A stretch of DNA of 64,000 nt from Methanofollis ethanolicus (GTDB taxonomy: Archaea > Halobacteriota > Methanomicrobia > Methanomicrobiales > Methanofollaceae): the NCBI RefSeq assembly GCF_001571385.1, contig NZ_BCNW01000001.1, positions 2,046,001 to 2,110,000 on the forward strand, given 5' to 3'. Of the stretch, positions 41,769 through 43,700 are shown one piece after another. The notes below the pieces were generated by a model, which saw only the letters and a list, made by a program, of their open reading frames with translations, had not been told where the DNA came from and did no database searches. The first letter of the stretch is position 1. Each line of letters starts with the position of its first letter. A program made the position numbers and the translations under genes.

Positions 41769-41824
41769 ATGACAAAAAGAAACTTTTTTATCTGGTGCAA
41801 TGGAGACGCCACTGTGGAGAGAGC

Positions 41825-42301
41825 ATGGAGATTGTAAAGATACCCCGGATGGAGAAAGAAGAGTACGACCAGCTCATTGCCGACGGGTTCATCGCCAGGA
41901 TCGCCTTCCAGGGGGAGAAGTACCCCTATATCGCACCATTCCTCTACATCTTCGACGGCACGTTCCTCTACTTCCTCTCGACAAAGTACGGGCGGAAGAA
42001 CGACCTCTTCAGGAAAAGTCCGTATGTCTCGGTCGAGGTGGAGAAGTTCACCAGAGACCTCTCCTGCTATACCTTTGTGACGATGCAGGGGTACCTCAGG
42101 CAGGAGGAAGACACGATCCAGAAGAAGATCGTCAGGAATGAGTTTGTCAGGATGATCAAGGAGCGGAAACTCTCGACGAATATCCTTGCGGCACTCGGCC
42201 ACCTGCCCGGGGACCCCATCGAGTCTATCGCCTCGGAGGAGCGATCGAACATCTGGAAGCTGACCGGCGTCGTCGATATCGTCGCCCTGAAAAATCTTTG
42301 A
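41825..42301 (+). CDS. FMN-binding split-barrel (pyridoxamine phosphate oxidase-like) protein
   Basis: 158 residues. The N-terminal strand FIARIAFQGEKYPYIAPFLYIFDG and the following YFLSTKYGRKNDLFRKSPYVSVEV match the split-barrel fold that binds FMN or F420/heme; YTFVTMQGYL forms the next strand. Substrate unknown. ATG 41825 is chosen since translation from GTG 41795 would add a non-homologous decapeptide. Confidence 0.82.
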   Translation: MEIVKIPRMEKEEYDQLIADGFIARIAFQGEKYPYIAPFLYIFDGTFLYFLSTKYGRKNDLFRKSPYVSVEVEKFTRDLSCYTFVTMQGYLRQEEDTIQKKIVRNEFVRMIKERKLSTNILAALGHLPGDPIESIASEERSNIWKLTGVVDIVALKNL

Positions 42302-42624
42302 ATGTCAGCGGTCCCTCTCTGAAGGTTCGCTTGGCAGAGGGAGACCTGACACTCTTTTTCTCAAAAATTCTTCCAAGATTTATTTCATGAACAGCGTGAA
42401 CTCATGGGGCATTCTGTGATTTTCGAGTTTATCCCCTCCCATCTCGCATAGATATTTTCCAATTTAATGCTTCGAGGGCGCTATCCCCATATCCGGAGCC
42501 GTGAGCATGCCGAAAATCAAAGATTTTCTCGAACTCGCTATCGCTCGCAGCCCCGGGATCCCAATATCGGGATCGGTGCGGGATGGCGTATGGGAGGATC
42601 GGATCACTTTTATCCAACATCTCT

Positions 42625-42659: not shown

Positions 42660-42810
42660 CACTTTACACTCTAATAGACGATTAATGGAGAGAGAATCTC
42701 ATTTACCAACAAAAATTAGCCAGAATCCTATCTCAAAAAATAATTATTCAGAATATTGGGTGTAGAATGCAATATTGCCACATCACAAAATATTGGGGCA
42801 CCTCAATATC

Positions 42811-42830
42811 CTATATAATTAATATATAAT
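42811..42830 (+). promoter_or_regulatory. strong AT-rich promoter with upstream palindromes
   Basis: Overlapping TATA-type boxes (TATATAATTAATATATAAT) sit just downstream of two dyads: GCAATATTGC at 42769-42778 and ATATTGGGGCACCTCAATAT at about 42790-42809. A start near 42840-42852 would transcribe the structured region described next. No conventional gene lies directly downstream. Confidence 0.4.
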
Positions 42831-42844
42831 CAGACCATTATAGT

Positions 42845-43095
42845 ACGGTATACCAGTTACAGCAACCAACGGTCTCAAAAATAACAAGTTACTCCATCTG
42901 GAGCAACAAACTTCGGACTAAATAAGTGACATTGTATAGTCCCTCGCTCCAGATATAACCCTATTGATCACTCCCATCTTCGCTATCGTAACTGTGAAGT
43001 TAAAGGGAGGTGATGCCATAATAAAAGTTATCGAGGCCGGATTTGTTGTCGGAGCGAGCATTGTTCTTATAATATTTATCATAACTCACTTCTAA
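42845..43095 (+). ncRNA. candidate structured RNA or leader with nested stem-loop
   Basis: Two nested perfect stems: ATCTGGAGC (42896-42904) with GCTCCAGAT (42946-42954), enclosing GGACTA (42915-42920) with TAGTCC (42937-42942) and a 16-base loop. The 5' boundary is set only by the promoter at 42811-42830, the 3' boundary only by the end of a small frame. It may be a regulatory RNA or the leader of the small membrane peptide. Confidence 0.3.
42994..43095 (+). CDS. possible 33-residue membrane peptide
   Basis: From GTG 42994 the frame encodes about 33 residues ending in one hydrophobic helix (GFVVGASIVLIIFIITHF). A full GGAGGTGAT site (43006-43014) sits inside the frame, three bases before in-frame ATA codons, so initiation at a non-standard ATA (43018) is conceivable. 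It overlaps the end of the opposing gene by 17 bases. Support is a good ribosome site plus a transmembrane helix only. Confidence 0.3.
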   Translation: MKLKGGDAIIKVIEAGFVVGASIVLIIFIITHF

Positions 43096-43675
43096 CTCTT
43101 TTTTTCCTCTGCCACCTCTTCGCCACGAACGCCCCCATCGCAACGACAAAGATCCCGCCGAGCACCGCCCTGACGACCGGTGCCGTGGTGTCGGTGCCGA
43201 TGAGGAGTGCGTGGACGATGCCCATGACCAGGGCGGCGTACATGAGCATGTGGACGGGCCGCAAGTATGCAGGGACCCGCTGCCTGAGGGCGGCGGCAAG
43301 GACGGCGACGAGGATGAGAACGAGGGCCGGCCGCCCTGCATAGGTCCAGAACTCCACCCCTGTCCAGGTCGAGGGGAGGAGGACCGCAAGGCTCCCGGCC
43401 AGCAGGGCGTAGGAGAGGGGGTGGAGGAAGACGGCGGCAAGGCCGAAGGCGGCGAGGGTGTGGTGGACCGCGAGGAACGGCCTGCCGAAGATCTCCCTGA
43501 TCTCGCGGAGGAAGGGCGACATCGAGGCGGCGATGGCGAGGGCAAGGTAGCCGTTGAGGGCCAGGAGGCGGACGAGAAGAGAGAGGGGGTCGCCGCCGGC
43601 CAGAAGAACGGACGCGCTGACGATGCAGAAGAGCGCCGCTATTCCCCCGGCGAGCACCACGCCCAGCCTCTCCAT
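43079..43675 (-). CDS. ferric reductase-like transmembrane protein
   Basis: 198 residues with about six membrane helices. The order of histidines (AVHHTLAAFGL, VFLHPLSY, RPVHMLMYAALVMGIVHALL) resembles the heme-binding core of ferric-reductase-like or MsrQ/YedZ proteins. No flavin or NAD domain is fused, so an external electron donor is needed. ATG 43675 follows GGGGAGGG; the longer open frame upstream is a shadow of the glycosylase gene. Confidence 0.75.
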   Translation of the reverse strand: MERLGVVLAGGIAALFCIVSASVLLAGGDPLSLLVRLLALNGYLALAIAASMSPFLREIREIFGRPFLAVHHTLAAFGLAAVFLHPLSYALLAGSLAVLLPSTWTGVEFWTYAGRPALVLILVAVLAAALRQRVPAYLRPVHMLMYAALVMGIVHALLIGTDTTAPVVRAVLGGIFVVAMGAFVAKRWQRKKRVRSEL

Positions 43676-43700
43676 GCCCTCCCCTTGCCGCGGTGCTATA

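Follow-up and report, generated by a model that had tools for sequence, protein, structure and literature searches.

The window analyzed here is a stretch of 64,000 nucleotides from the genome of Methanofollis ethanolicus (2,713,913 bases, referred to as G000); two relatives within the genus, G010 and G006, serve for comparison below. A pyridoxamine-oxidase-like gene (41795-42301, plus strand) and a convergent gene for an MsrQ/ferric-reductase-like membrane protein (43079-43676, minus strand) flank an element carrying a very short open reading frame (ORF) for one hydrophobic helix at 43018-43095 on the plus strand. The convergent gene is a neighbour outside the element and overlaps the end of this micro-ORF; its product matches Ferric_reduct with an E-value of 0.0028 and MsrQ with 8.9e-5, both below cut-off. 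Upstream of the element an intergenic repeat, CCGAAAATCAAAGATTTTCTCGAACTCGCTATCGCTCG..., is present at 42510-42555; in locus L003 it likewise lies upstream of the element, where it was seen twice.

The micro-ORF is preceded by a perfect Shine-Dalgarno (SD) sequence, GGAGGTGAT (43006-43014, plus strand), after which two consecutive ATA codons come next. Counted from the first ATA (43018-43020) the ORF has 25 codons and from the second (43021-43023), which aligns with an ATG in G010, it has 24; the stop codon TAA is located at 43093-43095. An ATG that overlaps the SD (43013-43015) encodes just Met-Pro-stop. The stop is followed by a T-rich stretch on the same strand (43096-43105), a putative terminator, that reads CTCTTTTTTTCC in G000 and G010 and CTTTTTTCTCC in G006. 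A survey of the genome for an SD followed by ATR revealed 13 places, eight with ATG and five with ATA. Four of the five SD-ATA places lie inside open stretches of 332-778 codons; the micro-ORF is the sole exception.

Two inverted repeats are located further upstream and are operator candidates. The first (42753-42775) has the halves ATATTG (42753-42758) and CAATAT (42770-42775) separated by 11 nucleotides; in the second (42790-42809) the same halves (42790-42795 and 42804-42809) are separated by eight. ATATTG and CAATAT at a distance of 6-14 nucleotides occur at exactly two sites in the whole genome, both upstream of the micro-ORF, and the number of inverted repeats in 42721-42850 exceeds that of base shuffles (P 0.004; P 0.014 for two repeats with a common half-site). 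The repeats were not found upstream of the homologues in G010 or G006, and an AT-rich operator as a conserved regulator was therefore rejected. An AT-rich TATA region (42812-42834, plus strand), a putative archaeal promoter, has TATA-like boxes at comparable positions in both relatives, and transcription probably starts near 42845. This would yield a 5′ leader of about 170 nucleotides (42845-43017, plus strand) that can be aligned in the three genomes and is free of ATG up to the SD.

The leader contains a nested hairpin (42896-42954, plus strand) with a conserved internal loop of 10 nucleotides. Its outer stem of 9 bp is formed by ATCTGGAGC (42896-42904) and GCTCCAGAT (42946-42954), and its inner stem of 6 bp by GGACTA (42915-42920) and TAGTCC (42937-42942), with four further pairs at the tip (AUAA, 42922-42925, with UUGU, 42932-42935). 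The 81-nucleotide stretch with the hairpin has a folding energy of −21.9 kcal/mol (z −4.83), and none of 200 shuffled sequences was as stable. The earlier note on this region had described two ATATTG palindromes and a TATA region, nested stems of 9 and 6 bp and a hydrophobic frame behind GGAGGTGAT with ATA as its nearest useful initiator, all of which we found in the sequence as described; the 33 codons given there for the frame correspond to a count from the GTG at 42994.

The comparison covered 12 genomes of Methanofollis, the only genus of the family in the set. A DNA search of these genomes found the match in G010, and a search with a looser threshold returned a 22-base match in G006, where inspection revealed a whole homologue in the same place. 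Altogether, three of the 12 genomes (G000, G010 and G006) carry the element, always in the same position, next to where the convergent gene ends. This gene was found in 11 of the 12 genomes, and inspection showed no element next to it in G001, G002, G003, G004, G005, G007 and G011; the contig of G008 ends at the convergent gene, and G009 gave no neighbour match. In the close relative G005 the element is missing between flanks that match the window at 95% and 89% identity. The presence in only three of 12 genomes and the lack of the element between these flanks show that it is dispensable, which counts against the reading favoured below. At the place of the element, G003 (L017, approximately 1390-1475) and G001 (L018, approximately 1380-1470) have a different intergenic stretch, and the two stretches look alike by eye. 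A covariance model of the part with SD and ORF, built from G000, G010 and G006 themselves, recovered these with E-values of 1.7e-29, 5.7e-30 and 2.5e-25, respectively, and no other match among 199 genomes of the order. Around the SD and ATAATAAAA, 21 of 22 bases agree between G000 and G006, and GGAGGTGATRCCATAATAAAAG is common to both, despite an identity of only 59% between the neighbouring proteins. Viral contigs scanned for exact patterns gave no match, and a viral origin was rejected on this basis.

From the aligned start the ORF has 24 codons, is free of stops and ends at the identical stop position in G000, G010 and G006. The GRAVY values of the three peptides are 2.03, 2.67 and 2.44, respectively. 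In the same order, T occupies the second codon position in 14, 15 and 16 of 23 codons and the first position in three, three and four. Only fractions of 0.0002, 0.00001 and 0.00003 of base shuffles gave a stop-free and equally hydrophobic frame, and in neutral-substitution simulations with the target composition the fractions were 0.00025-0.009 (0.0001-0.006 in an earlier version of the simulation). The other two frames of this strand contain stops or are not hydrophobic. Thus, a short, stop-free and hydrophobic ORF is conserved between species, and the bias of T among the codon positions together with the preserved hydrophobicity points to a constraint on the peptide. Judged by these comparisons, the ORF is under selection; its product is predicted to be a single-span membrane protein, which would be inserted into the membrane.

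The aligned start codon is ATA in G000, ATG in G010 and ATA in G006, and no other initiator position behind the SD is conserved. Neither G010 nor G006 has an in-frame ATG, GTG or TTG upstream; G000 alone has a TTG (42964) and a GTG (42994) in frame. Since the aligned codon in G010 is ATG and an upstream start common to the genomes is lacking, initiation at AUA in G000 and G006 is the simplest reading of the alignment. Translation of the same membrane protein from another start, with the ATA codons being internal, would use TTG or GTG in G000 and CTG or a similar codon in G006. The frame is indeed open upstream in all three genomes, the TTG gives 43 codons in G000, and G006 has an in-frame CTG at a comparable place. 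However, the TTG is not in frame in G010 owing to a one-base difference, all these codons precede the conserved SD, and the ATG of G010 is located exactly at the aligned ATA; we therefore consider another start unlikely.

A rare non-AUG start that holds output low is known from infC of E. coli, which starts with AUU; that gene is bacterial, codes for an unrelated protein and uses AUU instead of AUA. A study on start codon switches counts AUG, GUG, UUG, CUG and AUU, and AUA does not appear in its main text (PMC5622118). As stated in the same text, non-AUG starts tend toward stronger SDs, and the combination of a strong SD with a weak ATA start fits this link (PMC5622118). For Methanosarcina mazei the main text of a study on small proteins gives ATG as the start of 83% of the annotated and 56% of the unannotated small ORFs (sORFs) and does not contain the term ATA (PMC11456600). 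In the open-access literature we found no case of an AUA start in archaea and nothing relevant on small RNAs of Methanofollis.

The hairpin is the best conserved part of the comparison between G000 and G010, with 56 of 60 positions identical; the values are 38/59 for the 5′ leader, 46/58 for the SD leader and 42/75 for the ORF (Fisher P 6e-7 for hairpin against ORF). All ten pairs of the inner helix hold in both genomes, including one in which both bases have changed (A-U to U-A); of the outer helix, G010 has lost three of nine pairs. As many both-side changes were seen in 260 of 500 shuffles and are thus not significant, because two sequences are too few. A scan of genome contigs with a 20-mer of the hairpin gave a match in the G010 contig only, and a hairpin model searched against the 199 genomes found G000 and G010 plus three weak matches (E 0.19-0.65). 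No Rfam family reached its gathering score; the best match was SNORD90 on the opposite strand (E 3.5, 17.6 bits against a required 41). The leader is thus constrained in one lineage. The higher identity of the hairpin compared with the ORF and its stable fold might mean that the element is a non-coding or dual-function regulatory RNA with the hairpin as its working part and the ORF being secondary. Since G006 lacks the hairpin yet keeps SD and ORF, and since codon-position bias and preserved hydrophobicity reflect a constraint on the peptide, we regard this as rather unlikely. That the leader might hold an archaeal H/ACA guide RNA was likewise considered, as a single hairpin with an internal loop is directly followed by AUA, resembling an ANA box. 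H/ACA guide RNAs have a GA/GA kink-turn in the upper stem, and as this motif is lacking at the hairpin tip when read off the sequence, the candidate was rejected; with three outer-stem pairs lost in G010 and no match in Rfam, such a guide is extremely improbable.

Between hairpin and ORF, a segment extending from GATCAC to the SD (42966-43014, plus strand) would be able to pair with the SD according to sequence and predicted folds. TGATCAC and GGAGGTGA, the latter at the SD, are invariant in G000, G010 and G006, and each of the three folds has the SD base-paired, with differing partners. The occlusion does not exceed that of shuffled leaders, of which 65, 30 and 44 of 200, respectively, were at or below the observed value. 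A translational switch that sequesters the SD was therefore rejected as a proven switch. The same result weakens the case for a type I toxin-like gene, in which a hydrophobic peptide would be silenced by the fold of the leader, by inefficient initiation and possibly also by an antisense RNA. The size and hydrophobicity of the peptide, the structured ATG-free leader and the patchy presence would agree with such a gene. TisB, DinQ and Ibs are bacterial type I toxins, short hydrophobic peptides encoded by mRNAs with structured leaders; the micro-ORF resembles them in both features and differs in being archaeal and in its probable AUA start. We know of no archaeal precedent and consider a toxin-like function quite doubtful.

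The peptides of G000 and G010 contain a GxxxG motif at residues 7-11 and have a hydrophobic pattern like the single-span Mtr subunits MtrF and MtrB. Alignment of the G000 peptide with its own MtrF scored 34, which was reached by none of 77 control helices and by 24 of 5000 shuffles; the G010 peptide scored 44 with MtrB of G000 (0/77 control helices as high) and 35 with MtrF (1/77). The G006 peptide is unlike them, showing no similarity to the Mtr single-span helices. Scores of the G010 peptide against the MtrF family are below the curated cut-offs (11.6 against 22 bits in Pfam, 13 against 64 in NCBIfam), and membership was thus rejected; the window peptide matched nothing in Pfam or NCBIfam and the G006 peptide nothing in Pfam. 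Because this lead arose post hoc from the sub-threshold G010 match and GxxxG is also present in 17 of the 77 control helices, we treat the resemblance as a lead only. Two further observations concern these subunits. In the mtr locus of G000 (L057), mtrF is flanked by two near-identical mtrA-like genes of 247 and 252 codons, the second of which ends in an MtrG-like helix and therefore looks like an MtrA-MtrG fusion. In G005, G008 and G009, three of the 12 Methanofollis genomes, a search for MtrF gave nothing at E ≤ 0.001, possibly due to assembly collapse of the surrounding mtrA repeats.

In M. mazei, the Mtr complex is the target of two small proteins, MtrI and MtrR (PMC12774963, PMC13370731). 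The element has in common with them that it would be a stand-alone small gene in a methanogen with a possible Mtr partner; MtrI has 68 residues (PMC12774963) compared with 24-25 here, and the Mtr link of the micro-peptide is a weak resemblance between helices, seen for two of the three homologues. Small membrane proteins of M. mazei such as sORF_05 are likewise unannotated short hydrophobic helices encoded by stand-alone sORFs in a methanogen (PMC11456600), a likeness by description. That the element combines a kept AUA start and a new conserved leader RNA with a micro-peptide that mimics MtrF/MtrB and tunes the energy-conserving methyltransferase of methanogenesis is very unlikely.

The earlier note had left open whether the region holds a regulatory RNA, a leader or a small membrane protein missed by annotation, and the comparison supports the last two together. 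It had also named a lack of conservation of both stems and frame as refuting. In this check the frame is kept in all three genomes, and the stems are kept in G010, with three of nine outer pairs lost, and are absent from G006. At the level of sequence, ORF, hydrophobicity, SD and stop position are conserved, as is the hairpin in one relative. Altogether, we favour, with a probability of about 0.6, a real stand-alone gene for a micro-membrane-protein of 24-25 residues, which has ATA as a weak start and is preceded by a structured leader. Transcription of this gene would probably begin near 42845 and end in the run of T residues that follows 43095. Its leader, with a possible role in regulation, would contain the conserved nested hairpin and then the segment that may pair with the SD. 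Ribosomes would attach at the perfect SD and begin translation at the AUA of 43018 or of 43021; since AUA is an inefficient codon, little peptide would probably be made. The product would insert in the membrane and might act there by packing its helix against a partner.

What is surprising about this finding is the conservation of a non-standard start. Genes of 24 codons with ATA starts are invisible to ordinary gene callers. The leader is kept better than the peptide, which points to a regulatory RNA without an Rfam family. With ATA kept across species and ATG present in a sister species, AUA initiation in archaea would be directly testable at this locus.
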